Notes under the pieces: model-generated
What the model was told of the DNA's origin: nothing
What the model saw: only the letters and a program-made list of their open reading frames with translations
Database searches by the model: none
Made by a program: the position numbers and the translations under genes
Shown here: positions 3,301 to 64,000 of the stretch, piece after piece
How the letters are laid out: each line of letters opens with the position of its first letter
How positions within the stretch are numbered: the stretch's first letter is position 1
Source: Branchiostoma floridae
Taxonomy: Eukaryota > Chordata > Leptocardii > Amphioxiformes > Branchiostomatidae
Direction: 5' to 3'
Length of the DNA stretch: 64,000 bases
Assembly: GCF_000003815.2 (NCBI RefSeq)
Contig: NC_049985.1
Coordinates: 1,515,410-1,579,409 of the forward strand

Positions 3301-5216
3301 TAGTCACCCAACCCTCAACTTGTTTTGACCAGCAATCACCCTTACACCGATAACCATAATCCAACTCAAACTACCACCACATCCACTTTTGACACCAGCT
3401 TTTGTTTGACGTTGGCAGTGGCCTAAAGCTATCTGTTCAAACTTCTTTCCATACAGATATGACGACTACACTCGGGACAGGGGTCACCACAGAAGGACCG
3501 ACCCAGGCTACACTCGGGACAGGGGTCACCACAGAAGGACCGACCCAGGCTACACTCGGGACAGGGGTCACCACAGAAGGGCCGACCCAGGCTACAGAAG
3601 GGACAGGGGTCACCACAGAAGGACCGACCCAGGCTACACTCGGGACAGGGGTCACCACAGAAGGACCGACCCAGGCTACAGAAGGGACAGGGTTCACCAC
3701 AGAAGGACCGACCCAGGCGACAGGAGGGTCAGGGGTCACCACAGAAGGACAGACCCAGGCTACAGGAGGGTCAGGGGTCACCACAGAAGGACCGACCCAG
3801 GCTACAGGAGGGTCAGGGGTCACCACAGANNNNNNNNNNNNNNNNNNNNNNNNNNNNNNNNNNNNNNNNNNNNNNNNNNNNNNNNNNNNNNNNNNNNNNN
3901 NNNNNNNNNNNNNNNNNNNNNNNNNNNNNTACAGGAGGGTCAGGGGTCACCACAGAAGGACCGATCCAGGCTACAGGAGGGTCAGGGGTCACCACAGAAG
4001 GACAGACGCAGGCTACAGGAGGGTCAGGGGTCACCACAGAAGGACAGACCCAGGCGACAGGAGGGTCAGGGGTCACCACAGAAGGACAGACCCAGGCTAC
4101 AGGAGGGTCAGGGGTCACCACAGAAGGACCGACCCAGGCTACAGGAGGGTCAGGGGTCACCACAGAAGGACCGACCCAGGCTACAGGAGGGTCAGGGGTC
4201 ACCACAGAAGGACAGACCCAGGCGACAGGAGGGTCAGGGGTCACCACAGAAGGACAGACCCAGGCTACAGGAGGGTCAGGGGTCACCACAGAAGGACAGA
4301 CTCAGGCTACAGGAGGGTCAGGGGTCACCACAGAAGGACAGACCCAGGCTACAGGAGGGTCAGGGGTCACCACAGAAGGACAGACTCAGGCTACAGGAGG
4401 GTCAGGGGTCACGACAGAAGGGTTGGGGCAAGGTTCCGAGGGATCTGAACAAACGTCTTCGTCCACCGCAGAAGCTAGTACAGGTACCACAGACTGTTCC
4501 GTTGCTGATCAATGCGAGAATATTAGAGCAATTTGCATCTATACTTAGCGAAGTATACAGTAGACCCCAAAAATGCATCAGCACCAGAAACATTATCATT
4601 CCCTTTATCTCAGCATTGCAGCTAGCCGCGGCGACTTCTTCATGGCTTCTCTTGCTTGCATGCTCTGATACGACTGCAAGCTACAGAAGCCTTGCATATT
4701 ACAACAGTCGCCGCGGCTACATTGCATGCAGTCAAGCACACAACTGACGGTACCCTTTGCCCTAATAAACTATCAACCTAAAGTGAACTTCCCCTCCTAT
4801 TATTGTTAAACCACTCTTTGCCAAAACTACCATTGATGGCGTGCTTCTGCCCACTTTTGACAATGAAAATAACACACTTTTATTTTTCAAACTCTACAGC
4901 AACAACAGATCCGGCTGCCACTGCATCATCACAACCACCTGCAGTCAACGGTACAACAGCAGCGGTCGCTGTCAATACAACAGCCAGTATCAACCAGCCA
5001 GAAGCAGGTGCGAACATCGGCCTCATCGTCGGCTGTACCGTGCCCGCCGTGCTGGGTCTTGCCGGGCTTGTATCTCTCGTCTACTTCCTCCTGAAGCGCA
5101 AGAAGATGGGGAAGGGCAAGATCCATCCCGGCGACTCGTACGGCGTCGATATCCCAGAAGCCGCACCGGAGAGCTACAAAGCTTTTGACCCGTCCTTCCG
5201 CAATTTCAGCGAGTGA
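343..5216 (+). CDS. Ly6/uPAR-like domain plus mucin stalk, single-pass membrane protein (5' partial)
   Basis: Four exons are supported: 343-433, 1333-3177, 3457-4483 and 4900-5216. All three internal introns are phase 1 and have GT/AG ends. The first exon ends a cysteine-rich module (RGCAAEDTC) and the next opens with [10 protein letters not shown], the CC-x4-CN signature that closes Ly6/uPAR three-finger domains; the earlier part of that domain lies left of the window. A very Thr/Ser/Glu-rich stalk of over 900 residues follows, containing two arrays of 14-residue repeats, as expected for an O-glycosylated mucin. The last exon encodes a hydrophobic helix (about [19 protein letters not shown]), a basic KRKK stop-transfer and a 35-residue tail ending NFSE. 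I infer a plasma-membrane type I mucin-like receptor or adhesion protein. The frame across the assembly gap cannot be checked. No known orthologue is recognised. Confidence 0.78.
434..1332 (+). other. Intron of the Ly6-mucin gene
   Basis: This phase-1 intron (GTATGT donor at 434, CTACAG acceptor at 1332) splits the Ly6-like module. It is AT-rich. The only structure seen is a perfect 12-bp hairpin at 570-597 with a GAAA loop. Reading frames within it lack coding character. Confidence 0.7.
2406..2783 (+). repeat. 42-bp coding repeat array 1 of the mucin stalk
   Basis: Nine tandem 14-codon units with the pattern [14 protein letters not shown] lie inside the large stalk exon. Units differ by a few residues (L/P, Y/N, D/K). 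The upstream part of the same exon has longer, looser repeats containing [13 protein letters not shown]. Confidence 0.9.
3468..4426 (+). repeat. 42-bp coding repeat array 2 of the mucin stalk (VNTR)
   Basis: Tandem 14-codon units of the form [14 protein letters not shown] are seen, eight complete before the gap and eleven after it. Unit-to-unit identity is much higher than in the array of the preceding exon, suggesting recent expansion and probably copy-number polymorphism. Confidence 0.92.
3830..3929. other. Assembly gap of exactly 100 N inside the repeat array
   Basis: One hundred Ns interrupt the 42-bp array. The coding frame before and after differs by one base if 100 is taken literally, so the length is a placeholder and the number of repeat units is unknown. 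Confidence 0.97.
4484..4899 (+). other. Last intron of the Ly6-mucin gene
   Basis: A phase-1 intron with GTACCA donor and CTACAG acceptor. Reading through the donor would give a short tail with a Cys pair and then a stop at 4546-4548, ending the protein without a membrane anchor; this could be an alternative secreted form, but nothing else supports it. Confidence 0.55.
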
Positions 5217-6204: not shown

Positions 6205-9200
6205 TTAACTTTCCGGTACCAAATCAATCTTAGACGTAAGGTAGTCCGTCAGCTTTGGCATCAGGGCCCCGAATTTGGTGAAGGGCCACATGATGAAGGG
6301 ATAGTAGACCTCCCGGGCTCGTGTGGCGCCTCCTCGCACAATGGACATGGCGGTCTGGTCTACCGGCGTCACTATGTCCAGCAGCTCTGGGGTACTCTGG
6401 AACAAACATGAATGGATAGATGGATCGATGAATAAGCAAGTGAGTGGATGAATAAATGATCTGAGCAGAGCCTTTGAAGGGACAACATGGCCATCAACTA
6501 GTTTTCACAACACTCCTTTAGAGCATAGAAGTAGCCAAATGGGAGGTAACGTTATGGTTGGTCTCGGGGTTTACCGGTCATTCTAAGTCCATGGTTGCAA
6601 ATGGTTTATAGCTTAAAACTAAACCACCACTACGCAAAAGTTAGGTGTGACAGGTTGTTCAATGCAATATAAATAGCTGCTGCCGCGCCGCATGCCTGCG
6701 AAGCTGGTGTGTTACGCCGAAGAGCAGTTATATACCGGCTATACTGATACAGATACAGTAATCTGGAAAAAATATAGCGTGCTAACTCGTCAGGCAAATT
6801 GTTCACCTACTTTCATCTTACCTGTAAGTTTTGAACGACTTTCGGAGTCCCTATGTACCCCAGCACGGCGAGAGTGACGGACACGTCCTGCCCCGCCTTC
6901 ATCAGTTCCACACGGAGCGAGCTGAAGAACCCGTCCAGACCGAACTTGGCGGAGCTGTAGAAGCTCAGGTTGGGCCACGGTATTTTACCTACAGATAGAA
7001 CACATGGAATGAGTAGAACATTTAGAATAAATGGAGCACAAGGAATGAATAGAACATGTACCATAGAATGAATAGAACACATAGAATGAATAGAACACAA
7101 AGAATGAATAAAACACTTGGAATAAATAGATTTCATAGGATGCATAGAACGCATGGAATTAATAGAAACCATGTTCGTGGAATAGAAAGTATATAATGTT
7201 ATATAGAATAGAAAAATAAGTATCAGGAAAAACTTCTTTAAACACAGTGTTTCTCTGCTTGATTTTTTATTGACTGTCTATTTCGACATGCAAACACTAT
7301 ACTGACTGGTTCTGCTCCGCATCCCAGCTAGGTGTCGCTACCTTCATATCTATGTCAGATTTACTACGTATTTTCAAAAAGTTTGTTAACGCTATTCACT
7401 AGGCCTGACTAGGGTTAATAATGTTCACTCTCAGTAGAAATTAAGTTAATTTTTAGCAAAAGGCAGATGTGTACGTGCTCGTCAAATGTTTGCCACGTGC
7501 ATCTAAGGCAAGCGATAGATGAACAGAAACTAATTATATTTACCGAAACCAGAGTTCACCACCACGATATGTCCTTTACTCTCCTTCAGCAGAGGCAGGG
7601 CCAGGGAGGCCAGCCGGACGTAACTGACCAGGTTGATGTTCAAATAGTCTTCAAAGAAGTCCATATCCGGGTCCTGGTCCCAAGACTTGCCCTCGTGAAA
7701 TTTGTCTTCTAGAGATTTATAATTGGACCCAACGTGGTTCAGAACCAAGTAGTCCAGCCTCCCTGGAAAACATGTAGAACATTATTGTTGATGTTAATTC
7801 AATATTAGGTAGTATATCTTGCTTTTAGATACAAGTTTGAACATGTTTTGTTGCGACATAGCCCAATTTAGCAAAAATGTGTAGTAAAAAGGTCCAAGGA
7901 CCCTTACAATAATGTTAACTTTGAACATGGTAACAAAGTATGTATCCAACGTGTGAATTTTACCAGATTTATCACCCGATTTGTGATATTATGGTCTGGT
8001 AGATACAAGACAAATACACCCTAACACAATGCGCCAAACGTCCGAAACTTAATCTCCTTACCAAATTTCTCCTTAGCTGTTTGAATGGTTCTCTCACAGT
8101 CCTCCGCCTTCCCCATGTCCCCGGCCACGTAGTGCGCCTCCTGGGCTCCCAGAGACACAGCTTTCGCTACAACCTCAGGGGAAAAGATACATCGACTTAA
8201 GCTCACCAAGACAATTGTCCAAGGATTCGTACGTGTCTTCTACCAAATTTATTGTATTCCCATACTTTAATTGTCTTACATGTCGGTAACCACCAAACTT
8301 TTCAATCTCTAGCGCCAGTAATGATTCACCAGGCTACTGAATCTATAAAGATAGCTAAATCTCTGAAAAGATGGTCTCTCACTTCTTTTAGCCTGTTCTC
8401 CCTCCTGGCTGTGATGAGAATCTTTGCTCCCAGCCGGGCGTACTGGTACGCCATCTCTTCGCCGATGCCGGTACTGCAGCCCGTGATGACAACTGTTGCA
8501 CCGCGGACAGATTCTGTGGGACAATGCCAACCTTGTCATACGCCAAGCATTATTTCATATATACGGTAAACGCCGAAAAAGGAGCAACTACTCAAGCCCG
8601 AAATCAAGAAAGCTCGGAGTAGAGATTCCCTGCTATGTTTTTTTTAAAGACAAACTCGCGTGAGAATGTTTTGTTTCTTGTTGCTAGTTTCATGACTTTT
8701 AGGTACAAAGTTAAATCGATTAAACTTATTGGTGCCATTCGTATATGCACTGTAACTGTCAGAAGACGTAAAATCCAAATGAATACTTTTCAGTACAGTA
8801 TTTAGACAATCAAGGCTTGTACAAAAAACTGTCAATAGGAATGTGCGTAAACCATACTAGAGAAAGTAAACTTACACAACTAATATTTACACGTACCGAC
8901 GCCATCGTAGAGCCAGTAATACAGTATATCCTGACGACTACAGTACTAACTACCACCCAAAATATTAAGCAATATCTCACTTGTTCGAAATACTTCAATA
9001 CTTTGTCAAAGGCAGAAACACGAAGCATTGCTCGCAACACTATGGTCTTACATGAGGACACGCCCACATTACGTATACGAAGGTAAACAAAGGGTTACTC
9101 GGTCCGGGCAACTAAGACGGAACAAGAAGAGGTCTCTGTCATTTTTGCAAGGCACAATCACAATTTACGCAAGATTTGTTGTTGTACCCTTCTAAAGAGG

Positions 9201-10300: not shown

Positions 10301-13300
10301 CTGACACCTATGTAGTCCACAAACTGCGGCACCAGCCCGGTGAGCTTGGCCATAATCCATGTGTAGAAGGGATAGTACACCTCCCGGGCGCGGGTCGCCC
10401 CTCCCCGGATAACCGCCTGGGCAGTCTCGCCGATCGGAGCGGCACCTTCCAGGGCTTTCTCACCGTCTGGCACATTCTGGAACAAAACAAAACAAGCAAG
10501 GTAACGCACCAGGGGGAGGGGAAAAATCGACCTTGACCTTCGCGCGAGTCTTCCAAACCTAGCCTGAGTACCATCAGGGAAGTACAGTAGAAGCCGCTTA
10601 ATGTCACACCCCATTTGCCAGTGCATTTCGTGCAATTATCCAGGTGGTGCAACAAAGCGAAGTTATTAAGCTGGAACGTACCACCATGGGATTTTGGGAT
10701 TTCGGGCAATTAACAGAAGTGTGTGATTATCCGTTGTGCAATTAACTGACTTCTACTGTAGTGTTAAAGTTAGCTTTAAAAAATTGTTTGCTTTAGTAGG
10801 TTATTAGCTCCTAAGGCTTACTTGCAACTTTTCCGATATTGTCGGTGTCGCGATGAAGCCCAGCACGGCGAGAGTGACGGACACGTCCTGCCTTGCCTTC
10901 ATCAGTTCCACACGGAGCGAGCTGAAGAACCCGTCCAGGCCGAACTTGGCGGAGCTGTAGAAGCTCAGGTTTGGCCAGTACATTTTACCTGCGAACAAGA
11001 CAGGAACACATCAAATTGTGATTTATCAAAATCCCTTACGTCTCAAGTTTTCATTTGATTTTCGTCCTCTTTCTTTCCAACGAATAAACGCTTTCCTTCC
11101 TCTTCCCCTTTCTCCATTTTCCTTCCTTCCTTCTTTCTTTCTTTTTTTCTTTCTTCGCTTTCTGTCTTTCTTTCCTTCCTGTCTGTCTTTCTTTCTTTTT
11201 TATTCATTTCTATCTCTATTTGACTTATCATCATCGAACAGCCTTTCGTTTGTTTTTCTTCCATTTATTTCTTACTTTCTTAATTTCTTTCTCTACGCTC
11301 TCCATAACTTCCTTTCTATTTTCTGTCCTCTCTTTTCCTTTCTCTCTCAATTCGCTCATTATCGTAATAGCAGCATGCACAATAAATAATGACAATACTA
11401 CGTCTGGTGTATCATTTGCAGCAAAGTACATGTAGGTACCCAATGTTTTGAATGAAATGAACAAAATGATGTTACCGAAACCAGAGGACACCACCACGAG
11501 ATGTCCGCTGCTCGCCTTCAGCAGAGGCAGGGCCAGGGAGGCCAGCCGGACGTAACTGACCAGGTTGATGTTAAGGAAATCCTCGAAGAAGTCCACATCC
11601 GGGTCCTGGTCCCAAGATTCTCCCTTGAAGAATTTGTCATGAAGAGGTCCGAAATTGGATCCAAGATGGTTCAGCACCAAATAGTCCAGTCGACCTGAAC
11701 GAAAGGTACAAATCAAGTATCAGCATACAGGAATGCATTTGAATGGAACGAGTTGCCTTCTACAGTACTGTAAGAATGGACACGTCTGGCTTATCCTTCA
11801 AGAAGCTACTGAAAAATCACTGCTGATCTTTGGCCGCCTGACCTCATTAGCTTTGATTCACGATATACGATTTTGATTGACGACCTGTTGTATGTATATT
11901 GTTATTTTCGGTTACATTGTTATATTATTTAGTTTTTCTTACTTCTTTGTTTATGTTATTCGCTTTATGTTATATACAGAGCACGCCTGTAAAGTAGTGT
12001 AAGCGCGCCTACCCTATAAAACGAAAACAGAAATAAACAAGAGTTCGGCGACCTCATACCTCCATGAAATATTTAGTGCTTTTGTAAATTTTATGCAAAT
12101 GACTTAGCCATTTACAAAATTTATGCATGGTGATGTTCATCATTGACTAACGTACACATGTCACAAGTATAAAATTCCCATCATTAGTCATTAAGGGGAT
12201 TTGCTATTTTTGTATATATTATGCAAATCAGTTACTCATTAGCATATTTGGTATCTGCTTATGTTTCACCTATCATAACTTACATGTGTTACATTTACTG
12301 AAATTCAGTTATTGAAAACAATGAAATTGTACAATTTCCTCATTAATTATGCAAATTAGGTCCTCATTTGCATAAAATATATATCATTATGAACATATTT
12401 GTCTAAGCTACCTGCATGCCAAAAATGATGGCAATCCGTCATTCCTTTCTATAGTTATCCTCTTTGGAGTGTCTTGACAAAAATGCCCCTGCAGTTCCAA
12501 AATTAAATGTAAGGGGGCTGAAACTTGCCCCACTTTGTCATGACGTTGAAAGCTATCTACCACCCAAATATCAAGACCATATCATGTCCAGTAAAAGAGA
12601 TACATTGAAAAAAACTGCTATGATAGAATATTCTCATTAATTATGCAAATGTATTCTAATTTTGCATGATTCGTATTTCATCTTATACAACATTGTCTGA
12701 GGTACCTACATACCAAAAATCATGAAAATCCGTTGTTCCCTTCTTGAGTTATCCACTTCAAAAGTTTTTGACAAAAATGCCCCTGCTATCCCAAACCTAG
12801 TCGCTAGGGGGCCCAAACTTATGTCACTTATTCCTGAGCAAAAGAGCTACCTAACACCCCAAAATCAGGACCATATGTTGTTCAGAACACGAGATAGCAA
12901 AACCGGAAGTTGCGCTGCAGTACCAAGGAAAGCCGCTAGGGGGGGCCAACATCTAATCACTTCCAGCTTTCATCACAACCCACCAACACACCAAGTATGA
13001 AACCAATCCACCCAGCCGTTCTTGAGTTATCTTGTTCACAGACAGACAGACAGACAGACAAACGCAGGGTAAAAAATAAATAGACATATTTCTACCTAAA
13101 GTAGATTTGAGTATATTATCTGACAAATAAATATGCATTCATTAGTGCGATTTTACTTTTAGATTATTGCAATAAAAAGAATGCAAAGCGCAAAGAAATA
13201 TTAAGATTTGGAGCACATCTTATTCCCTTACCGAATTTCTCCTCGGCTGTTTGAATGGTTCTCTCATAGTCTTACAAGATTCATCACCTAATTTGTGATT

Positions 13301-17117: not shown

Positions 17118-20100
17118 ATGTCTCGTCTAGCGTGGGTCAGTCTGGCGGTAGTGTTGGCTGCTGTGGGGACTGGGGTCTACTGGAGCTATGATGGCTTCGA
17201 TCCAGGTAAAAGTTAAACTACTACTGTAACAGTCTATATCTAGTCCAGGGCGTTATATTTTTTGGAGCAATAAAAAGTACAACGACGAAGTTCATACGGT
17301 CAAGTACAAAATCGAAATACATACAAAGTAAACCCTAACATTCTTATTGCTAAAGAATATAGGCTAAAATAAGTACGTAATCGACTAATGGTTTGTTGTT
17401 AGAAAAAAAAACGTTTGCAGCACAAAGGTCAAAGCTAAGGTTCTTGACAACGAGTGCCGGCTAAGCCATCTTAAGAATGCTGGAGATGTTAATTATATAA
17501 GACAACGGAACGACTAAGACCGCAAAAGTATTAAATCATTTAACCGCACATTTACGAATAACCACACCAATCACGCGTCAACATTCAGCAACTGTACACA
17601 TCCAGAAAGGCGACGTACTATTCTTTAGATGGGCAATATGGCACTTCTACTGAGTCAATCTATCACTGTCAAAATATATCCTTGATCTGGTTAAATATAG
17701 TTGGCAATGCTGCATGGCATGTAACACTATCTTAATCCCCTGCCTCATATGCACGGGACCTTCTCAGGATTTTGCTTCTGACCACTCCACACTAAAGCTC
17801 GACGCTGGGTTGGTAGTAGCGTAGCTATAGAACCCAGCCAATGCTAGCTCCGATTCGCCCCTCTGATCACAGCCAAGCAGGATATTGAGTTTCCCTTCAT
17901 ATGCTTCAAAATGTATAGTCAATATTTTAATCATTGGCGACCTGCTAACACGCCAAATATGGGGTCGTTCTTGAGTTATCTTGTTGACCAACAGACAGAC
18001 AGACAGACAGACACACTGACAAACGCTACTATACCTTCTGGTGAAGGTAGTGACTAAAGAAAATCATCTGAAGAGAAACTAACTCATGCCTTCCAGAGTC
18101 TCTGCGGGGGGCAACTGTCGTCATCACGGGCTGCAGTACCGGCATCGGCGAAGAGATGGCGTACCAGTACGCCCGGCTGGGAGCAAAGATACTCATCACA
18201 GCCAGAAGGGAGAACAGGCTGAAGGAGGTGGGGATGTTTTGTAATAAAATCAGTGATAAAAAATGAATATTCTTCTCATATGAAAGACCTGAATAGCCCC
18301 GTAGCAGCCACTTGTCTAATTGCGTAGTACTACTATTCTTAATCTTGTAGTCTTGTGAGATATGTACAGTGTCATTGATGTAAGACGGTTCGACTCAACT
18401 GTATGCTTCCCCAGGTTGTAGCGAAGGCTATGTCTCTGGGAGCCCAGGAGGCGCGCTACGTGGCCGGGGACATGGGGAAGGCGGAGGACTGTGAGAGAAC
18501 CATTCAAACAGCCAAGGAGAAATTCGGTTTGGTTTTACTTATCAAAATATCCGTTACTGATACATTATACGCTCAGTATTATTGGAATCTTCTTACATTG
18601 CTCACTGCCGATGGAATACTGCTTGCCGAATTACTTACATTTGCTACATTGCTTATCTTATTATTTACTCATAACTCCATTTTTTATTTATTTATTCATT
18701 CATTCATTCATTCTTGTCCATCTATTTATCTATTTATTTTATTACAATTTATTATTGATTTTATTTCAGAACGCCTTGACTATCTAGTCATCAACCACGA
18801 AGGGTCAAGTTTCAAAAACGTTGTGGACTACTACGGAAAGAAGTTTTGGGACGAAGACCCTGATATGGACTACCTGGTGGACTTCCTAAACATCAGTCTG
18901 ATCAGTTACGTCCGTCTGGCCTCGCTGGCCATGCCTCTGCTGAAGGATAATAAAGGACATATCGTGGTGCTGTCGGGTTTTCATGGTAAGCATCCGGTCG
19001 CACACGTTGTGGGCTTTTCGTACGATTGCAAACGTACGGCATTTTTGCGACAGTTGCAAGGTCATTTTTGCGACAGTTGCAAGGTATGTTGACAATTCAA
19101 GTATTCTAAGGCCGTCTTAGACCATTATCGGTGGCTAGCTCTGTCACAGTCTGCTTTAATATTTTGCGACACAAACAATCATACTACGACCTACGACCTG
19201 GCGACAATTGCTGTACGATGGGTCGTAGGTGTGTCTCCTGTGACGAAAAAAAAACGTTGTCGTAGAACCTTGGTGTGGGTCGGATCTGTCATTGTCTTGC
19301 CGAAAATCTTACCACAAAAAAAACACTCTTGGACTCGCCTTTAAGCAAGGCAGTCTTGTACTTTTACAGTCAATGAGACGAGCTGACGTCATGATTATTT
19401 CAGGTCAAAGTACCTCGTAGATCAAGATTAACTGTTGCTGACAACACAACACTGTCAACAGTTGTTATTCTCATGGTCACCTTTGCTCTAACCTGGGGGC
19501 CAGGCAGGATCGGGTAGCTAGCTATTTTTTTTCTACGGGGATCAAAGGCCCGCCGATCTCATATTAGCGGTCGGACTGCCTTTGGTCCTTGTAGAATAAA
19601 CTCGCTAGCTACCCGATCCTGTCTAGCTCCCAAGGTATTGCTCCTCCTTCGGACTTAAACTCCCCAGAGCGCTAATATGAGATCGGCGAGCTCGAGCTGA
19701 CTGTCTTAGGTCCCCGTAGAGTAAACTCGCTAGCCACCCGATCCTGTCTGGCCCCCAGGGTACCTTTGCTCGTTCTCCCTCACCTCTGTACATGTGTTTC
19801 TAGGAAAGACTCCATTTCCTACCTGTACCTGGGGCTCCACTGCCAAGTTTGGCCTGGACGGGTTCTTCAGCTCGCTCCGTGTGGAACTGGTGAAGGCGGG
19901 GCAGGACGTGTCTGTCACTCTCGCCGTGCTGGGCTTGATCAGGACACCCGCGGTGGAAGACTTGTTGCAGGTATATAGACAGTTCGTGTTATGCTAGGGC
20001 ATGGCGCTAGCCAGCCTCTAGGGTGTAATTCAGTTGGCCGGAGTACACCCTTTAAACAGTCTGGAATCAAGGCTAGTTTTCCGTCAATTAACGGAACGTC

Positions 20101-22017: not shown

Positions 22018-24912
22018 CTATGGTTCACCGTCATGCTCATAGATCATACAACAAGCAGCAGCTGCTGTTTTCTCATCACCTGCCTCATAGATATCATGAG
22101 AAGCCTGAGACTCTGGTTTCCCATTGTCGTTCTTGTAAATAGAGTGAGGTGCAGATAATTCTGCTTTCTGGTCATCATTTCCGTAAATGATTTGAGAAGC
22201 CGGAGACTCTGTTTGCTCATTGTCAGTCTTGTAGATGGATTGAGATGCAGCAGACTGTGCTTTATCATCGTCATGGCCATAAATAACCTGAGCAGAAGCA
22301 TACAGCACTGTATCGTCTTTATTGGTATTCTCATAGGTGACATGAGAAGTATCATGTACTGTTTCCTTCACATGGGTGTTCTCATGGCTGGCATGAGAAG
22401 TACCAGCTGCTGCTTTCTCAGGACCGTCAGGACCAATGTAATGAGAGACAGCAGATTCTGCTTCTTTTTTAGGCATAGAAATGGGCTTCACATCCTCATA
22501 ACCAGACTCAACCTTCGCATACACTATGTTTACTAGTTCATGGACTGTCATTAGATTTTTGGCCGACAGTGCCTCTGGTGCACATGCCGATTCTTTGTTT
22601 GAACCTACAGCACCCCTAGCAGTGCTAGCGATGGTTTGGAGAGTTTCGGGGTCATCATACACATTCTCAGACATGTCGGCCTGTTTGCCTGTGGGGGGAT
22701 TGATTGTTGGTGCTGATATTACAGGGGACTTTTTCTTCCTTTGCGTCCACCAAAATGCAAAGGCAAGGCTAGAAATCATTATGACTCCGCCGAAGGTGCC
22801 AAGACCAATAGCAAGATGCAGAAGCAATGTTGGATTGACTTCTGAAAGTGGAGGTAAAGTTGACACCAAAGATAAAACATTGAGGGAATTAAATGTGGCA
22901 GTTTTGACATCAACAAACACTGTGCCAGACACCGAGCCGATAGTATTTGTTGCAATGCAAATGTACTGACCAGCATCTGCTGCAATAACATTAATTATGG
23001 TGATGGTACCATTCACTCCCACAGTCACTCTCCCACGTGACTCAGCACTTGCAATCAGTCCAGATGGGAGGGTGACAGTGACATTTGGAGGAGGTATTCC
23101 TGAAGCTTCACAGGCCAAATACAGGGTGCCTTCCTGTGTATTTTCGCTTATTTCAAACCGCACAATCGTTGGCCTTTTGAACATCATAACGTCAGACTGT
23201 ACAGCGCCAGTGGATACGCCTGACGTAACTTTTGTTTGGGTTTCTACCTCAACAAACAGTTTGTTGGAAATCGTTGGCTTTTGGAACATCTTGCCGTCAG
23301 ACTGTGCGACAGATGTCGAAGCCATGACGTCAGAGATCTCCACAAGGTCAGTGGATACTACTGGCATGACCGATGTTGGGGTTTCTACCTCAACAAACAG
23401 TGTCTCAGATGCAGAGCCACCTGGATTTGTTGCAGTACAGATGTACTGACCAGCATCTGCTGCAGTAACATCTCTTATAGTGATGGTACCATTCACCTCC
23501 ACAGTCACTCTCCCACTTGATTCAACAGTTGCAATCAGCTTAGATGGGAGGGTGACTGTGACTTCTGGCTTAGGTGTACTTGAAGCTTCACCAACCAAAC
23601 GGAGAGTTCCCCCCTGCACCAGTCTGTCGCCTTTGCTGTTTTGAAAACTTACAATCTTTGGTTTTTCACAGATTAGCTGGTCAAGGTTTACATACTCAAG
23701 TTGTTTCCCATGGAGGCCGCTTGGTGTTTGACAAACAATTTGGTTTTTGAATAGCTGCGCTTTCTTGACATTTGCCATTGCACAATCACAGTACCAGGGG
23801 TTTCCCTTCAGTGTCAACCGTATGAGCTTGGGCAAATGTGAGAATGTACCAGGATTAATGGCAGTTAGGCGGTTTCTCTCCAGATCTATATTTTGGAGCC
23901 TGGGTAGGTTTGAAAATACCCCAGGTTGAATGCGACTTATTTTATTAGCGTGCAGCCCCAAGTCATGGAGTTCAGGCAAATCTGAGATTGTGCCAGGTTT
24001 AATGTCAGATATTGTGTTATATTCTACATGCAGCGCGTTGAGCTTTGGTAGATTGGTGAATGTGCCTGGGTCAATCTTAGTTATCCGGTTTTGGGATAGC
24101 TTCAACATCCTAAGCTCTGGTAGATTTGTAAATGCACCTTGGTCAATGTTTGTTATCTGGTTGATGGATAGGTCCAACCACTCAAGCTTTGGTAGATTGG
24201 TGAATGTGCCTGGGTCAATCTTAGTTATCCGGTTTCGGGATAGGGGCAACATCCTAAGCTTTGGTAGATTTGTGAATGTACCTTGGTCAATGTTTGTTAT
24301 CTGGTTGCTGGATAGGCCCAACCACTCAAGCTTTGGTAGATTTGAGAATGTACCTGGGTTAATGTTTGTTATCTGGTTGATGGATAGGGCCAACCGGTCA
24401 AGCTTTGGTAGATTTGTGAATGTACCTGGGAGGATTTTAGTTAGTCTGTTGTTCTTCAGTTGCAAATGACAGAGCTCTGGTAGATTCGAAAATGTACGGG
24501 GGTCAATGTTAGTTATTTGGTTTTGATACAGCCACAATTTTCTAAGCTGAAATAGACCTGAAAATGTACGAGGCTGGAGGTAAGTTATCTTGTTAATTTG
24601 TAGGTACAATGTGTGAAGCTCCGTCAGATTAGAGAATGTCTGCTCATTTACTGTGGAAATCTGATTGTGGTGAAATTCTAACTCTCTCAACTTTGTGTAC
24701 TTTGAGACGTCAAACTGACCTAAGCTTGTGATGTAATTTGATCGCAGCTTAAGCTTAGTGATGGTTGCAGGTAGGTACTGAGGAACACTCGTGAGACTCT
24801 GGAACTCACATTCACAGTCAGACGGACAGCTGCTGCTGCAGGCTGCGGTCGGCCCGGCTTCCTTCAACACGATGAGCAGGAGAACCAGGAGAGCCTTCCG
24901 CTTGTTTGCCAT
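22018..24912 (-). CDS. LRR-Ig receptor L1 (LRRIG family), 964 aa
   Basis: One uninterrupted coding exon. Signal peptide about 1-24; LRRNT with CSSSCPSDCEC 25-36; thirteen 24-residue LRRs about 50-361; LRRCT (NPWYCDC) 371-415; Ig1 about 417-509; Ser/Thr-rich linker holding a duplicated module 510-580; Ig2 about 580-669 (C601, C652); TM about 697-722; RKKK stop-transfer; tyrosine-rich tail 727-964. The tail has YDDP (Y752), IVYAKV (796-801, ITIM-like) and six 16-residue Tyr units from 876 (Y878, 894, 910, 926, 942, 958). Ig1 has Gly441 where the paralogues have the first disulfide Cys. The family is known as innate-type surface receptors in amphioxus; ligand and partners are unknown. The start lies just after an AG, so the ATG exon may be spliced to upstream leaders. 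Confidence 0.93.
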   Translation of the reverse strand: MANKRKALLVLLLIVLKEAGPTAACSSSCPSDCECEFQSLTSVPQYLPATITKLKLRSNYITSLGQFDVSKYTKLRELEFHHNQISTVNEQTFSNLTELHTLYLQINKITYLQPRTFSGLFQLRKLWLYQNQITNIDPRTFSNLPELCHLQLKNNRLTKILPGTFTNLPKLDRLALSINQITNINPGTFSNLPKLEWLGLSSNQITNIDQGTFTNLPKLRMLPLSRNRITKIDPGTFTNLPKLEWLDLSINQITNIDQGAFTNLPELRMLKLSQNRITKIDPGTFTNLPKLNALHVEYNTISDIKPGTISDLPELHDLGLHANKISRIQPGVFSNLPRLQNIDLERNRLTAINPGTFSHLPKLIRLTLKGNPWYCDCAMANVKKAQLFKNQIVCQTPSGLHGKQLEYVNLDQLICEKPKIVSFQNSKGDRLVQGGTLRLVGEASSTPKPEVTVTLPSKLIATVESSGRVTVEVNGTITIRDVTAADAGQYICTATNPGGSASETLFVEVETPTSVMPVVSTDLVEISDVMASTSVAQSDGKMFQKPTISNKLFVEVETQTKVTSGVSTGAVQSDVMMFKRPTIVRFEISENTQEGTLYLACEASGIPPPNVTVTLPSGLIASAESRGRVTVGVNGTITIINVIAADAGQYICIATNTIGSVSGTVFVDVKTATFNSLNVLSLVSTLPPLSEVNPTLLLHLAIGLGTFGGVIMISSLAFAFWWTQRKKKSPVISAPTINPPTGKQADMSENVYDDPETLQTIASTARGAVGSNKESACAPEALSAKNLMTVHELVNIVYAKVESGYEDVKPISMPKKEAESAVSHYIGPDGPEKAAAGTSHASHENTHVKETVHDTSHVTYENTNKDDTVLYASAQVIYGHDDDKAQSAASQSIYKTDNEQTESPASQIIYGNDDQKAELSAPHSIYKNDNGKPESQASHDIYEAGDEKTAAAACCMIYEHDGEP
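22021..22287 (-). repeat. 16-residue (48-bp) tyrosine repeat array, L1 tail
   Basis: Five full units and one terminal partial unit follow the pattern [V/S/I/D]IY-x-x-D-x-x-K-x-x-S-x-A-S-x. One Tyr per unit lies exactly every 16 residues. Confidence 0.9.
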
Positions 24913-32344: not shown

Positions 32345-35300
32345 ATGTCGCGTTTCTCGTGGTTCAGCTTGTTGGCGTTAATCTGTGCTGTAGTCCTTGG
32401 GATCTACTGGAACTACGATGGCTTCGATCCAGGTAAATTTTGTGTGTCTGCCATAGGTGTAGTATTGACGGGACGCAGTGTGGCCACCGCACTTAATAGC
32501 TGCACAATGTGTTATGTATGCGGCCCGGGGTTAAGTAACATTCAGTCGGATGCTACAGCTGGTAACTATATCTGTTCACAGAGAGCAGAACGCATGTGTG
32601 GCAACAGGAACTAGTATGACACAGGTAAAAGAAAACAAAACCTGTTGGATTTTGTTTATATGCAACTCGAAACAGTAGTCGAGACAAGGACTGTTTTCTT
32701 TACCTTATCTCTATGAGAAGACTTGTTGGAGGACGTAAAATCCGATTCGCGATAGGAATACTTTGTGAATAGCATTTCACGGATAAATTCAGGAGAGTTA
32801 ACAACACAAATTTAAGCACCTAGTAAGCTTTAACAAATAATTTACCCACGACGTTTAAGGTTGAAATAGAGCGGACCGGTTACGGTCGATTAGAATAACT
32901 CGGCACAGAATACACAAAGAGTAAGGTCAGTCAGCCGGCGAATCGGCCTCTCTTTCTCATAAAACAATTAACAATAACAACTAATTAACAAACGAGTAGC
33001 AATGACCGTCTCTGCTTAAGGATAATTTAAACATCTGAAATTCAACTTACAGAGTCTCTGCGGGGGGCAACTGTCGTCATCACTGGCTGCAGTACCGGTA
33101 TCGGCGAAGAGATGGCGTACCAGTACGCCCGGCTGGGAGCAAAGATCCTCATCACAGCCAGGAGGGAGAACAGGCTGAAGGAGGTGGGGAGGATTCATAA
33201 TGAAATTAGTGACAAAAAATTATGATTCCGTCTTCTCAAGAGGGTTTTTCCCCAGAACGATCGTAGAGTGGAATTTGTTATCACCAAGCACAATGGGGGC
33301 ATCTTCTCTGGATTGTTTTGTAGATATACGTGCAAAGGTTAGGTTATACCATTCTAAGGGTGATTATACCGGCTAGATACAGATACAGACATTAAATACC
33401 TGTATAGCTCCGAAGCATTCACTTGGCTAATTACGTAGTCTTATTCTTGATGCAATACTGTATGCTTCCTTCAGGTGGTAGCGAAGGCTGTGTCTCTGGG
33501 AGCCCAGGAGGCGCACTACGTGGCCGGGGACATGGGGAAGGCGGAGGACTGTGAGAGAACCATTCAAACAGCCAAGGAGAAATTCGGTAGGGGAATAAGA
33601 TGTGCTTCAAATCTTAAGACTATTTCTTTGCGCTTTGTATTCTTTTCTTTCCAATAATCTAAAAGTAAAACCCGACTATTGGGTGCACATTGCATCATTT
33701 GTAAGATAATATACTCAAATACACTTTATCCGGGATCATATCTATTTAATATCTATTTCTATTGTTTATTACTTATCTATTATTTGTTTTCGTTTTATTG
33801 GCGTGCTCCGTACAGAATAATATAAACGGAATAATATGAATAAAGAAGTAAGAAAAACTAAGCAATGAACAAAATGTGGCAGGCCGGGTGAAGAGGTCAG
33901 AGATCAGCAGTCATGTTTTAGTGGGTTCTTAAAAGATACGCCAGGGGTGTCTACGCTAACAGTACTGTAGAAGGCAACTCGTTCCATACAAATATACCCA
34001 TGTACGCCGACATTTGAACTGTACATTTCGTTAAGGTCGGCTGGACTATCTGGTGCTGAACCATCTTGGGTCAAACTTCGGGTCTTTTCAAGACAAATTC
34101 TTCAATGGGAAGTCTTGGGACCAGGACCCGGATGTGGACTTCTTCGAGGACTTCTTAAACATCAACCTGATCAGTTACGTGCGGCTGGCCTCCCTGGCCC
34201 TGCCTCTGCTGAAGGCGAGCAGCGGACATCTCGTGGTGGTGTCCTCTGGTTTCGGTAAAATCATTCTGTTCGTTTGTTGTGCATGATGATAAGATAGTGA
34301 TAGAGAGAGAAAGAAAGAAAGAGACAGAAAGGGAGAGCGAAAGACGAAGCCAGAGAAAGAGTAAGAAAGAAAAGAAAAAAAGAAAGAAAAATATCTGAGA
34401 TGATAAATCAAGTCATTGGGTTGACAGAAAGAGATGAAAAAGAAAAAAGAGAAGAGAAAGTGAGAGAATGAAATGAAGGAGTAAGAGAGAAATGAAAGAA
34501 AAATTAAAAAAAGAATGAAAGAAAAAGAGCAAGGAAAGAAGGAAAGAAAAAGAAGAAAAAAGGAAAGAAGGGAAGAAAAAGAGAGAAAAAGAAAAAAAGA
34601 GAAAGGAAAGAAATGAAGAAAGTAAGAATAAAAGAAATGGAAAGAAAGAAGAAAGAAAGAAAACAGAATGGAGGAAAGAGAGGAGAAGGGAAAGAAAGAA
34701 GATGTTTGATGATTTTTACTTGATTGTGTACGTTTCTATGTTGTTTGCAGGTAAGATGTACTTTCCAAACGTGAGCTTCTACTGCTCTGCCAAGTTCGGC
34801 CTGGACGGGTTCTTCAGCTCGCTCCGTGTGGAACTGATGAAGGCAGGGCAGGACGTGTCCGTCACTCTCGCCGTGCTGGGGTTCATCGCGACACCGAAAA
34901 TGGCGGAAAAGTTGCAGGTAAGCCAATGGTTAGGAGCCTTCACAGCCTTCCGTTGTTCTTTTTACCTCCATACAAATTGAGGTATTGTTGCGTCTGTCTC
35001 TGTTTGTATGTGTGTTCGTCTTTCCGGCTATTTGTAGTCAGCATAACGTTTGACCTTTAGATGGATTGTGACAATATTTCAGTATGTGGATATGGGTTTG
35101 GAATAGCCTGGGTACCATCCGGAAAGTAGTTCGCTCCGGCGTTTATTATACACTACTGTCGCTTCTCTGCTGTTCTGTCGGGTAGCAGAAGCGAACATTG
35201 GAGTGAACTACTACCCGGATGGTACTCAGGCTAGGTTTGAAAGACGCTCAAGGTCGATTTCGGGCCCCCCTGTTGCGTGACCTTAGCTTGCTTGTTTGGT

Positions 35301-36282: not shown

Positions 36283-37183
36283 CTATTGTCGGGTTTGACT
36301 TCTTCTTTGAAGGCAGTGGTTAATGAACTGTCCCACGTTCTGTATGATGGTGGGATTTTGTGCTTTTAATAGAAATGTAGTCTTTTGGTGATCATTTAGG
36401 TGGTAAAAGCTTGACGAAATTGTGGCAACTGTTTGAAATAATGTTTTTCTTTCGGTTTCATAGTGGGTACACTGACTGATAAAATGTGTTTCATTTTCCA
36501 TTAGCTTACCGTTATCTAGGGACAGTTGATGAAAAAACGTTTGAACGTACATATCGGTAAGTCTTCTCTTTAACAAAGTACATATGTTCTTATTGTCTAA
36601 TGTAGGGTAGTTAATGTTCCATAAGAAAGAATAGCCTGTGTTATCTATTATTTCTTTAACAGGATGCAACCATTTTTTCTTGTAACTATTTCCCATAAGG
36701 TATTCCTGACAGAGTAGTGCGTCCACCTGTAGGGGGGGGGGGGTGGAACTGTCCAGTTGTTTTAGTCTTTAGCCAGTATCTTATTACACGTACGGATATA
36801 TCAATATCTGTTGGGAACATCCCAAGCTCTGCTCTGCATGCTTGATTACATGAATACCTGTGCACACCAAGGATGTTTTTACAAAAGCGATTCTGGGTTG
36901 TTTCAACGGGACATTTGTCATTAGAGGAACCTTTGCCCCAGATCTCACATGCATACAACAGTGTAGACTTGCTACTAGTATCATAGATTTTAAGTAGAGC
37001 CTTTGGGGATAACGAGTTGCGAATGAGGGGTTTAATGCTTAAGGCGGCTTTGCGTGCCTTTAAAGACAATTGCTTTTTGGCTAATGAATAACTTCCTGAC
37101 GAGGACAAAATCAGGCCTAGGTAAGTGTATGGTTTAGTGACTTGGATACTCTCTACGCCAAGGGAAAATTTGATGTTCTTCAC
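36283..37183 (-). mobile_element. 5'-truncated LINE fragment (reverse-transcriptase C-terminal region)
   Basis: Two minus-strand frames join across a C/G run at 36733-36744: an upstream part with YTYLGLILSSSGSY and LLYACEIWGKG, and a downstream part with ENETHFISQCTHYETERKTLF. These are the thumb and post-RT segments of a non-LTR reverse transcriptase (family not resolved). The frame break and truncation mean it is inactive. It split a receptor 3'-UTR block: matching sequence resumes on both sides (37190 and 37480). Confidence 0.75.
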
Positions 37184-37259
37184 GTCAGCTTAGAACTTGA
37201 ATGCTTTTGGTCCGAGACAGAAAGCAGGACCAGGAACACGGATAGTGTGTCACGATTGT

Positions 37260-39600: not shown

Positions 39601-42159
39601 TTAGTCTTCATCATTATTCTCATAGATCAAACAAGAAGCAGTACTACCAGTAGTTGCTGTTTTCTCATCACCAGCCTCATAGATATCACGAGAAGCCCGA
39701 GACTCTGGTTTCTCATCATCATTCTTGTAAATAGAGTCAGATGCAAATGATTCTGCTTTCTGGTTGTCATTTCCGTAAATGATTTGAGAAGCCGGAGACT
39801 CTGGTTTCTCACTCTCATTGTTGTAAATAGCGTGAGGTGAAGAGGATTCTGCTTTCTGGACATCATTTCCGTGAATGCTAACCGGAGACTCTGTTTTGTC
39901 TCTATCAGTCTTGTAGATGGGTTGAGATGCAGCAGACTGTGCTTTATCATCTTCATGGCCATAAATAACCTGAGCAGAGGCATAAAGTACTGCTTCATCC
40001 TCATCGACATTCTCATTAGTGACATGAGAGGCATCATGTACTGTTTCCTGCACGTGGGTGTTCTCATAGCTAGCATGAGAAGTAGCAGCTTCTGCTTCTT
40101 TTTTAGGCATAGAAACGGGCTTTATATCCTCACTACCAGACCCATCTTTCCCATACACGATATTTACTAGCTCATGGACTTTCATTGGCTTCTGGGCCGA
40201 CACAGATTCTTCCTTTGAAACTACATCACTTCTAAGAGAACCAGCAATGGCTAGGAGAGATTCGGGGTCCTCATATGCGTTCTCAGGCATGCCGGCCTGT
40301 TCGTTTGCACTTGCAGCACTGTTGGTTATCTCTGGGTTTAAAGATCTACCCTGACCTCTTGTTCTATAGGTGGAATTGTTCACCATGTCGTCTGTAACGA
40401 GGGAATCATTATTCAGAGCTATCGGGGCCTTTTTCTTTCCCCGGGGACCCTTCAACCGCAATTTAAGGCCAAGACCAAAAACCAGCAATACTGCACCAGC
40501 TGTACCAAAACCAACCGCAAATTCCAGAGGAAAAATTGTTGACTTGCCTTCTGAATTGCCTGAGGGAGATGATGCTGGTACTAGAGGCGAAGCACTGAAA
40601 GGGGGCGAAACAGACGCAGCACCAATAAACACTGTACGAGACGCAGAGCCGACAGTATTTGTTGCAATGCAGATGTACAGACCAGCATCTGCTGCAGTAA
40701 CATTAGTTACGGTGATGGTACCATTCACTCCCACAGTCACTCTCACACCTGACTCAGCGCTTGCAATCAGTCCAGATGGGAGAGTGACAATGATATTTGG
40801 AGCAGGTTTTCCTGAAGCTTCACAGACCAAATACAGAGTCTCTCCTTGTGCTAGTGTATCATTGCTTACCTTAAACCTCACAATCGTTGGGGTTTTCAAC
40901 ATAGTGCCCTCTGACTGTACAGCGCTGGTGGATACAACTGGCATGACTGATGTTGGGGTGCGTACCTCAACAAACAGTGTCTCAGATGAACAGCCACCAG
41001 GATTTATTGCCGTACAGATATACTGACCAGCATCTGATGCAGTGACATCTCTTATAGTGATAGTACCATTCACCTCCACAGTCACTCTCCCTTCTGACTC
41101 AACAGTAACATTCTGTTCAGATGGGAGGGTGACTGTAATGTCTGGTGTAGGGATACCTGAAGCTTCACAGACCAAATAGAGAGTTCCCCCTCGCACCAGT
41201 GTACCACTCTTATTGTTGACAAACCTCACAATCTTTGGTTCTTTACAGATAAGATCTTCTGAGTTGATATCATCAAGACTTTTCATACGGAGGTTACTAG
41301 GTTCTTGACAAACAATTTTGTTATATTCCCGAAATGCCATCGAAGGTGTGAATTTCCTATTGTACAAATAAAGGGCTGTCATTCTACAGTCACAGTGCCA
41401 GGGGTTTTCCGGTAGTGCAATGTACATCTCACGCTTGGGTAAATTTGAGATTATATCAGGGTGAATGCTAGTCAGAAGATTTTGATGCAGGTCCAGGCGG
41501 ATGAGCTTGGGTAGGTTTGCAAATGCCCCAGGTTGAATGCAACGTATTTGATTAGAATGCAGCCCCAAACGAGTGAGTTGAGGTAAATCTGCGAATGTGC
41601 CACACTTAATGTCAGTTATTTTGTTTGTGTGTATCTGCAGATTGTCGAGCTTTGGTAGATTTGTGAATGTACCGGGGAGAATTTTAGTTAGTTTGTTGCA
41701 GCACAAATGCACATACCACAGCTCCGGTAGATTCGAGAATGTACCAGGTTCAATGCTAGTTATCTGGTTTTCCACTAACTGGAGCTCTCTAAGCTTAGAT
41801 AGACCTGAAAATGTTTGAGGCTGAATGTTAGTTAAATTGTTAAAAGTCAGGTGTAACTTTTGGAGCTCAGTCAGACTTGAGAATGTCTGCTCATTAACTA
41901 TTAAAATCTGATTGCGGTGAAAATCTAACTATCTCAACTTTGTGTACTTTGAGAAGTCAGACCTACTTAAGCTTGTGATGAGATTAGATCGCAGCTTAAG
42001 CTTAGTGATGGTTGCCGGCAGGTCCTGAGGAACACTGCTGAGACCCTTCCTCTCACAGTCACAGTCAGACCGACATCTGCTGCTGCAGGCTGCGGTCGGC
42101 CCGGCTTCCCTCAACACGATAAGCAGGAGAACCAGGAGAGTCTTCCGCTTGTTCGCCAT
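39601..42159 (-). pseudogene. LRR-Ig receptor L2 with a single premature stop
   Basis: The gene is colinear with L1 over 853 codons and open except for TAG at 41929-41931 (codon 77), where L1 has GAG. Domains: signal peptide, LRRNT (CSSRCRSDCDC), about eight LRRs, LRRCT (NPWHCDC), Ig1, a single (not duplicated) linker module, Ig2, TM, GKKK stop-transfer, and a tail with YEDP, one VHELVNIVYG motif and eight 16-residue Tyr-type units, the most of any copy here. No frameshifts are seen, so the stop is recent, polymorphic, or a sequencing error. As written, the receptor would end after the first LRR; a downstream start would lack a signal peptide. Confidence 0.85.
39604..39970 (-). repeat. 16-residue tyrosine repeat array, L2 tail (eight units)
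   Basis: Units include IYNNESEK, IYGNDNQK, IYKNDDEK and the terminal IYENND. One unit has His for Tyr (IHGND) and is two residues short at its junction. Confidence 0.85.
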
Positions 42160-62876: not shown

Positions 62877-64000
62877 TCATTCTTCATCATTATTCTCATA
62901 GATCAAACAAGAAGCAGTAGCTGCTGTTTTCTCATTATCTGCCTCATAGATATCATGAGAATCCTGAGACTCTGGTTTCTCACTGTCTTTCTTGTAAATA
63001 GAGTTAGATGCAGAAGATTCTGCTTTCTGGTCATCATTTCCTTGGACGATATGAGAAGCCTGAGACTCTGGTTTCTCATTGTCAGTCTTGTAGATGGATT
63101 GAGATGCAGCACACTGTGCTTTATCATCTTCATGACCATAAATAACCTCAGCAGAAGCATACAGCACTGCTTCGTCTTTAACGGTATTCTCGGTAACATG
63201 AGAGTTACCATGGTCTGTTTCCTTCACATGTCTGTTCTCATGGCTGGGATCAGAATTAGCAGCTGCTGCTTTTTCATGGCCATCAGGACCAATGTTATTA
63301 GAACTAGCAGCTTCTGCTTCTTTTTTAGGCATAGAAATAATGAGCTTCTCATCCTCCAAGTCAGACATACCCTTCCCATACTCGATGTTTTCTAGTTCAT
63401 GTCTAACTGTCATTGACTTTGAGGCCAACACAGCTTTTGGTGCGCATTGTTCTTTTGAACCTACAGGACCTCTAAGAGGACCAGCCTGGTCTTCACCATA
63501 CATGACGTTTACTAGTTCATGGACTGTTACTGGCTTTGGGGCCGACGCTGCACATACCACTGATTCTTCTTTTGGATCTACAGCACCTTTAAGAGGGCTA
63601 GTGAGGATGGCTACGAGAGATTCGGGGTCCTCATACACCTTTTCAGGCGCATCGACCTGATCTCCTGAGGTATTGAGCGACTTGTTAGCCACGTCGTCTG
63701 TACGGGTATCAATTGTTGGTGCTGATGGTGCGTGGGCTTTTTTCTGTCTTTTTTTCTTCCAAAAAGCAAGAAAAAGGGCAAGAGAAATCATTATGACTCC
63801 GCCAGTAGTGGCAAGACCGATAGCTCGGGGCAGAGGAAATTTTGTTGGATCGCCTTCTGAATGGCCAAGTGGGGGTGAAGTTGAATTATATGTGGCGGTT
63901 TGGACATCAACAAACACTTTGGCCGACGCCGAGCCCTCAGGGTTTGTTGCAATGCAGATGTACTGGCCAGCATCTGCTGCAGTAACATTAGTTACGGTGA
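62877..64000 (-). CDS. LRR-Ig receptor L5 (5' partial, runs off the window)
   Basis: The open frame continues to the right edge. Visible parts: the end of Ig2 (VTAADAGQYICIATN), TM (IGLATTGGVIMISLALFLAF) with KKKRQKK stop-transfer, a tail with YEDP, one VHELVNVMYG and one TVRHELENIEYG module, and six 16-residue units, the third without Tyr as in L4. From about codon DQAGPLRG to the stop it is almost identical to L4; upstream of that the membrane-proximal tail differs clearly. Ectodomain, start and promoter lie outside the window. Confidence 0.88.
   Translation of the reverse strand, partial: TVTNVTAADAGQYICIATNPEGSASAKVFVDVQTATYNSTSPPLGHSEGDPTKFPLPRAIGLATTGGVIMISLALFLAFWKKKRQKKAHAPSAPTIDTRTDDVANKSLNTSGDQVDAPEKVYEDPESLVAILTSPLKGAVDPKEESVVCAASAPKPVTVHELVNVMYGEDQAGPLRGPVGSKEQCAPKAVLASKSMTVRHELENIEYGKGMSDLEDEKLIISMPKKEAEAASSNNIGPDGHEKAAAANSDPSHENRHVKETDHGNSHVTENTVKDEAVLYASAEVIYGHEDDKAQCAASQSIYKTDNEKPESQASHIVQGNDDQKAESSASNSIYKKDSEKPESQDSHDIYEADNEKTAATASCLIYENNDEE
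62880..63147 (-). repeat. 16-residue tyrosine repeat array, L5 tail
   Basis: Same six units as L4 with one or two substitutions. Confidence 0.9.

Follow-up and report, generated by a model that had tools for sequence, protein, structure and literature searches.

A 64,000-nucleotide stretch of Branchiostoma floridae DNA (assembly GCF_000003815.2, contig NC_049985.1, positions 1,515,410 to 1,579,409 of the forward strand; here called the window) carries five paralogous genes, R1 to R5, for predicted receptors that join leucine-rich repeats (LRRs) and immunoglobulin (Ig) domains to a tail of repeated short tyrosine units. As read from the genome sequence, dozens of loci code for receptor tails built of this repeated tyrosine motif, and the tyrosine, the isoleucine before it, and the asparagine two residues after it (Asn+2) are conserved in distant members of the family. 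We hypothesize that the tails are scaffolds that would be phosphorylated by a Src-family kinase and would then dock SH2 adaptors of the Grb2 or GADS type, so that the function LAT performs as an adaptor would be built into the receptor itself. We infer the phosphorylation and the binding from the motif and its conservation and give this reading a probability of roughly 0.6.

Tyrosine arrays of the window

R1 (22018 to 24912, reverse strand, as are all receptor coordinates below) is a single open frame of 964 residues, laid out as an N-terminal hydrophobic stretch, LRRs, two Ig domains, a transmembrane segment, and a tyrosine tail of 16-residue units. These parts were assigned from Pfam matches (LRR_8 and Ig_3 or I-set), hydropathy, and an AlphaFold2 model (LRR solenoid and membrane helix). 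The array makes up the last 89 residues, from VIYGHDDDKAQSAASQ through MIYEHDGEP, and with the stop codon (22018 to 22020) it occupies 22018 to 22287, starting at V876 (22287). Its six tyrosines, at residues 878, 894, 910, 926, 942, and 958 (codons at 22279-22281, 22231-22233, 22183-22185, 22135-22137, 22087-22089, and 22039-22041), are spaced exactly 16 residues apart, as a preliminary description of this DNA had stated and frame reading bore out. That description had extended the exact period to all five receptors. It does hold for R3 (array at 46689 to 46958), R4 (54556 to 54825), and R5 (62877 to 63146), whose six-unit arrays share a common 16-residue register, but not for the eight-unit array of R2 (39601 to 39969), where the tyrosine spacings are 16, 30 (14 plus 16, with a histidine between), 16, 16, 16, and 19. 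Loss of the tyrosine in unit 3, described earlier for three receptors, affects four of the five, the residue being histidine in R2 and R3 and glutamine in R4 and R5.

The unit counts given before, eight in R2 and six elsewhere, also stand, with a qualification on R2. Its leucine-rich repeat region contains an in-frame TAG (41929 to 41931), and the frame 3′ of this codon (39601 to 41928) is otherwise open for 775 residues, including the eight-unit tail. Because of the TAG, R2 may be a pseudogene in this assembly, and it is probably broken. An eight-unit array in an uninterrupted frame is found outside the window in a relative, R7 (contig C7 near 1.70 Mb; 945 residues), whose spacings include 13 and 14. 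Tandem Repeats Finder reports a 96-bp period, equal to two units, for the R1 array, whose first units are alternately of the YG and YK types. R2 and R7 have two more units than the others, and by our reading these make up one YG/YK pair, matching that period. The copy number difference claimed earlier thus comes down to one unit pair that separates R2 and R7 from the rest of their clade, although one of these two genes is the probably broken R2. In a FastTree phylogeny built from the sequence that precedes the array, R2 clusters with R1 and R7, apart from R3 to R6. Therefore, the histidine in unit 3 of R2 and the histidine or glutamine in R3 to R6 reflect either two losses or one loss spread by gene conversion.

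Across R1 to R7, the arrays total 46 units. Tyrosine is kept in 41 of these, and the residue before the tyrosine register is isoleucine in 43 and valine in the other 3. Pure chance was rejected as an explanation, given a register common to 46 units with Ile or Val before it in all and tyrosine in 41. A strictly periodic structural repeat was also rejected, since the tyrosine core stays in place despite spacings of 13, 14, and 19 in R2 and R7 and of 14 to 23 in a more distant tail at C7:15.2 Mb.

Related tails across the genome

The genome (513 Mb, 431 contigs) was searched with the R1 tail as the query, and only the best candidates were scored. The search gave at least 101 matches at E ≤ 0.01, some of them marginal (E of 0.001 to 0.01), in at least 62 places, with match starts merged within 3.5 kb. 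Among these best candidates, the places fell on contigs C5 (29), C7 (14), C17 (6), C1 (4), C12 (3), and C10 (2) and on C2, C3, C9, and C189 (one each). DNA covered 38 of the 62 places; those at C3:31.50 Mb (mostly masked) and C12:15.404 Mb (split frames) were dropped, leaving 36 tails, a nonrandom sample that includes broken members (R2, R8, R9, and others that stop early). Prokaryotic relatives were rejected: nine stretches fitted a pattern in prokaryotic contigs, and none coded for a relative.

The 36 tails carry 8 to 29 tyrosines each (median, 12) and 0 to 22 Y-x-N motifs (median, 4.5). Y-x-N is the consensus bound by the SH2 domains of Grb2 and GADS. When tyrosine contexts were counted as unique heptamers (290 in all), asparagine stood at +2 in 141, compared with 8.2% in shuffled tails (standard deviation, 1.2; maximum among 500, 11.9%), and Y-x-N occurred at only 26 of 330 tyrosines in the ectodomains of the same proteins. 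Ile or Val preceded the tyrosine in 171 contexts, and Asp or Glu stood at +3 in 133. The preliminary description had remarked that several units read Y-x-N. The strong enrichment in the wider family upholds the motif, whereas most units of the window itself do not have it.

The commonest spacing between consecutive tyrosines was 16, seen in 83 of 287 intervals (310 tyrosines less 23, from the 23 nonredundant of 32 tails). The array at C9:10.748 Mb consists of 19 units in a row, spaced at exactly 16, with isoleucine in 19 of 19, tyrosine in 19 of 19, and Asn+2 in 14 of 19; Tandem Repeats Finder describes it as 17.9 copies of 48 bp with an 86% match. At C7:15.235 Mb, nine regular units all keep both tyrosine and Asn+2, and in the stretch before them 13 of 17 tyrosines are in Y-x-N at spacings of 14 to 23 residues. 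The "loose" units of this stretch were picked with a pattern demanding Y, E or G, and N, so their conservation is by construction; the figure of 13 of 17 counts all tyrosines instead. A run of units at C7:3.318 Mb is spaced at 17, and locus L064 (C7:3231300-3234000) holds a Y-K-K unit type within an otherwise Y-x-N tail, where this asparagine-less type seems to have spread.

The residue at +3 bears on other classes of tyrosine signal. Ile, Leu, Val, or Met was found there in 13 of 290 contexts, which argues against immunoreceptor tyrosine-based inhibitory motifs (ITIMs), the corresponding activation motifs (ITAMs), and Yxx-phi sorting signals, and none of these was accepted as the principal motif of the units. 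The paired YxxI/L of an ITAM does not fit the units at this frequency of hydrophobic +3 residues, and no separate search for pairing was made. The receptors could nonetheless be inhibitory and ITIM-like, with phosphotyrosines that attenuate signaling by recruiting SHP or SHIP phosphatases, as proposed for the Branchiostoma belcheri LRR receptor BbLcLRR. That receptor is a substrate of Lck, binds SHIP1, and when expressed in Jurkat cells inhibits T-cell signaling (PMC8211107), and the context of its Y690, HDYDDP, resembles the membrane-proximal NVYDDPE or NVYEDPE of the receptors studied here (in R1, NVYDDPE at 22645 to 22665; Y-D/E-D-P aligned in nine of nine receptors compared). Moreover, AIYQSD, cited as an ITIM-like motif of amphioxus VCP (PMC8211107), is close to units of the SIYKTD type, and two R1 sequences, IVYAKV (in the HELVNIVY module, 22519 to 22542) and SGYEDV, have ITIM spacing, although both are outside the array. 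Within the array, the +3 residue of the 46 units of R1 to R7 is D, E, N, G, or H, and the ITIM pattern [ILVS]xYxx[ILV] fits only 5 of the 290 contexts. We therefore regard an inhibitory role as rather unlikely.

It is far less likely still that the tyrosines have a nondocking role, either in endocytic sorting through Yxx-phi or as stickers that make contacts in a condensate. The composition of five tails, acidic and low in hydrophobicity, suggests that regularly spaced aromatic residues could act as stickers. By our reasoning, however, stickers need neither Asn+2 nor Ile-1 and should accept phenylalanine as readily as tyrosine, and the rarity of hydrophobic +3 residues speaks against sorting.

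Constraint, topology, and the docking hypothesis

Units within the same gene were compared with one another in R1, R2, R3, R4, and R7 over the first nine registers; the pairwise comparisons are not independent, and they include the probably broken R2. Nonsynonymous differences per site between units were 0.021 at the isoleucine and 0.082 at the tyrosine; at the other seven registers they ranged from 0.27 to 0.75. Synonymous differences were 0.82 at the isoleucine and 1.63 at the tyrosine and were at least 0.677 at six of the nine registers. Between genes at matched units, the contrast was weaker (Ile, 0.028; Tyr, 0.060), with registers +1, +2, +7, and +8 at 0.059 or below. By these comparisons of sequence, the tyrosine and the preceding isoleucine are the residues kept between units.

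The topology of the receptors is predicted. A Pfam scan of 10 proteins found LRR_8 in all 10 and Ig_3 or I-set in all 10; it listed no family for the tail in any of them, and the last 160 residues of R1 had no PDB match at E ≤ 1, so a known domain in the tail was rejected. Hydropathy plots of 13 frames showed a hydrophobic segment before the tail in every frame and an N-terminal segment above the same threshold in 8. In R1, the membrane segment and the basic residues behind it lie at 22732 to 22812 (by hydropathy, AlphaFold2, and sequence), and basic residues follow this segment in the close relatives of R1 as well. Taken together, the hydrophobic segments and the basic residues predict type I topology with an intracellular tail; the cytoplasmic location assumed in the preliminary description is supported to this extent, as a prediction. 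In the AlphaFold2 model of R1, made from a 13-row alignment, the LRR solenoid is predicted with confidence and a membrane helix is present; the tail lacks secondary structure and has a pLDDT near 25, which suggests that it is disordered. Other tyrosine modules are doubled in some members: HELVNIVY in R3 to R6 and R8 and YEDPES in R9. The doubled HELVNIVYG module lies at 47187-47327 and 55054-55203 in the window and is doubled in the C17 relatives that were read as well. The LRRs of R1 at 24041-24522 likewise form a tandem array, with a period of 72 bp and its multiples, so recognition and tail units may both vary in number by one process.

We propose the following mechanism. A type I receptor with an LRR and Ig ectodomain would present, on a probably disordered cytoplasmic string, many short tyrosine motifs with a core consensus across the wider family of [I/V]-Y-x-N-[D/E], mostly 16 residues apart. 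Ligand binding or clustering of the ectodomain would lead a Src-family kinase to phosphorylate the units; this kinase family is proposed because Ile or Val before the tyrosine suits it. The phosphorylated sites would recruit SH2 adaptors of the Grb2 or GADS kind, and with many similar docking sites per receptor, the adaptors could cross-link receptors into a cluster in the fashion of LAT, and no separate adaptor would be needed. The number of sites would change through unequal exchange between 48-bp units (or the 96-bp pair in the clade of the window), and losses of single tyrosines would fine-tune it. The identity of the adaptors, the clustering, the exchange mechanism, and tuning by copy number are all inferred.

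Published work bears on these steps. At the -1 position, Lck favors a bulky hydrophobic residue and ZAP-70 favors Asp (PMC5089863); in the tails described here, Ile or Val, not Asp, is commonest there. Lck phosphorylates BbLcLRR in both HEK293T and Jurkat cells, and mutating three of its tyrosines, one of them in HDYDDP, abolishes the phosphorylation induced through the T-cell receptor (PMC8211107). B. belcheri also has GADS, and the amphioxus SLP-76 study raises the speculation that bbGADS is recruited, along with bbSLP-76 and bbPLC-gamma1, by an unknown membrane protein (PMC5431462). LAT is cross-linked via adaptors such as Grb2 and SOS1 and condenses, and in a model, fewer available sites lead to a longer delay (PMC12636440, a preprint). 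LAT, EGFR, and nephrin share a recurring spacing of about 20 residues between SH2 sites (PMC9333988), which is near the 16-residue period of the units. Grb2 of B. belcheri coprecipitates another LRR protein, FrLRR (PMC10199209).

Several observations weigh against the docking hypothesis. In the window, Y-x-N is found in only 10 of the 28 tyrosine-bearing units of the five receptors (2 of 6 tyrosines in R1, 4 of 7 in R2, 2 of 5 in R3, and 1 of 5 in each of R4 and R5); R8 is without a Y-x-N motif anywhere in its tail, and R4, R5, R6, and R9 have one each. At C7:3.233 Mb (L064), the tail includes successive Y-K-K units, one of which has Cys where the others have Tyr; Asn at +2 is therefore not always kept. 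In 4 of the 10 genes of the window's clade (R2, R8, R9, and R10, the last at C12:15.404 Mb), the array or the sequence before it is broken or decayed. With respect to topology, 5 of the 13 frames (R3, R6, R8, and those at C7:15.2 Mb and C7:3.3 Mb) have extra ectodomain segments above the hydropathy threshold, which we read as Ig or linker strands. The Ig domains of the R1 model are of low confidence like the tail, so the evidence for tail disorder is weak. N-glycosylation sequons, which say little by themselves, are only slightly less frequent in the tails (0.84 per 100 residues) than in the ectodomains (1.25; 36 proteins). FrLRR is predicted to be anchored by glycosylphosphatidylinositol (PMC10199209), and its association with Grb2 is for that reason no model for a tyrosine tail; bbGADS failed to bind human LAT (PMC5431462). 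Finally, overall constraint on the array is weak. Across 15 pairs among R1, R2, R3, R4, R6, and R7, the ratio of nonsynonymous to synonymous change (dN/dS, by the NG86 method) is 0.69 when pooled over the array, and in 2 of the 15 pairs it reaches 2.05 and 1.64, on few (3.5 and 4.5) synonymous changes. Taken whole, the array is therefore not tightly constrained. Pooled values elsewhere were 0.64 for the proximal tail, 0.55 and 0.45 for the two Ig domains, 0.69 for the linker between them, 0.59 for the LRR part, and 0.94 for the stalk and membrane segment.

Two C12 relatives (L014:2395-4938 and L015:3816-6409) were seen to have broken tails, one stopping in unit 2 and the other split across two frames, and in a third relative, L011 (C7:1.691 Mb), the array is decayed.

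The weak overall constraint would fit a neutral or nearly neutral coding minisatellite, a 48-bp repeat that grows and decays within a disordered tail and whose single units have no function. The homogeneity of the C9 array and the broken state of several members of the window's clade are in keeping with such a repeat. It does not readily account for an isoleucine and a tyrosine that are kept between units while synonymous sites vary widely, for a level of Asn+2 about six times that of shuffled tails in unique contexts, or for the unevenly spaced stretch at C7:15.2 Mb that keeps Y-x-N. We consider this explanation improbable. Neutral evolution at the amino acid level, which the preliminary description had named as an outcome that would speak against its reading, is thus approached in the spacer residues and not in the tyrosine and isoleucine.

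Related systems and neighboring sequence

Amphioxus is known to have an expanded family of LRR-Ig (LRRIG) receptors, single-pass proteins that combine LRRs and Ig domains. The receptors described here resemble them in their LRR and Ig ectodomain (10 of 10 scanned), predicted membrane segment, and many paralogues. They also share an LRR and Ig ectodomain with LRIG, LINGO, and LRRC4 (NGL), and LRIG1, LINGO, and LRRC4B/C were among the PDB matches listed for R1. To our knowledge, the tails of vertebrate LRIG, LINGO, and LRRC4 have no tandem tyrosine array. Tandem phosphotyrosine units whose copy number matters occur in p130Cas (YxxP) and in bacterial EPIYA-repeat effectors, which differ from the present proteins in having other motifs and in not being ligand-binding receptors; no relationship is implied. 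LAT, as far as we know, has no ligand-binding ectodomain. Its cytoplasmic part, as we propose for the tails described here, has several Grb2/GADS sites, with Y171 and Y191 about 20 residues apart (PMC12636440 and PMC9333988), and it differs in having four distal tyrosine sites (PMC12636440) compared with 8 to 29 tyrosines per tail. Several Y-x-N motifs in a predicted membrane-anchored tail, the feature by which we would call a protein LAT-like, are present in the family at a median of 4.5 and up to 22 per tail. We class the proteins as LRRIG receptors by ectodomain and as LAT-like in their most likely way of working; we claim no sequence relation to LAT. BbLcLRR is similar in being an LRR receptor with a tyrosine-bearing tail, a Y-D-D-P context, and demonstrated phosphorylation by Lck. 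In contrast, it has a WSC domain, no Ig domain among those listed, three mapped cytoplasmic tyrosine sites, and ITIM-type motifs, and no tyrosine array is described in the sections consulted (PMC8211107). The results listed by literature searches included no title or abstract on a tandem tyrosine tail, in a collection that lacks many subscription papers.

Vertebrate lymphocyte receptors have few tyrosine motifs and borrow their valency from adaptors such as LAT. Here a single gene joins an LRR-Ig ectodomain to a tail of up to 29 tyrosines, and the number of sites follows a coding tandem repeat. Tentatively, and with less confidence than we place in docking itself, we suggest that lancelets have a germline family of dozens of loci in which LRR-Ig recognition is fused to a LAT-like multivalent array, that the gain of each receptor is set by a fast-mutating 48-bp repeat so that recognition and valency diversify together, and that the tails are the membrane anchor for the amphioxus GADS/SLP-76 module. 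If docking is true, the family would provide a natural series for testing the effect of phosphotyrosine site number on the threshold and size of a signaling cluster, and it would be a candidate for the membrane protein postulated in the amphioxus GADS/SLP-76 study (PMC5431462).

Of the remaining receptors of the window, R3 (46689 to 49439) has 916 residues and R4 (54556 to 57297) has 913; both were located by open frame and Pfam. R5 is represented by its C-terminal part (62877 to 63998), whose frame runs past the end of the window; read from the genome, the full frame has 898 residues. Near the receptors are exon-like pieces (18379-19092, 11231-11719, 6813-7277, and 34519-34980) that by eye resemble short-chain dehydrogenases and apparently form a second local family. 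A mucin-like frame with a tandem repeat (3393-4448) is broken by a 100-N gap at 3830-3929, and another Thr-rich frame lies at 1248-3272. Frames at 36283-37189 resemble, again by eye, a reverse transcriptase fragment of a non-LTR element.

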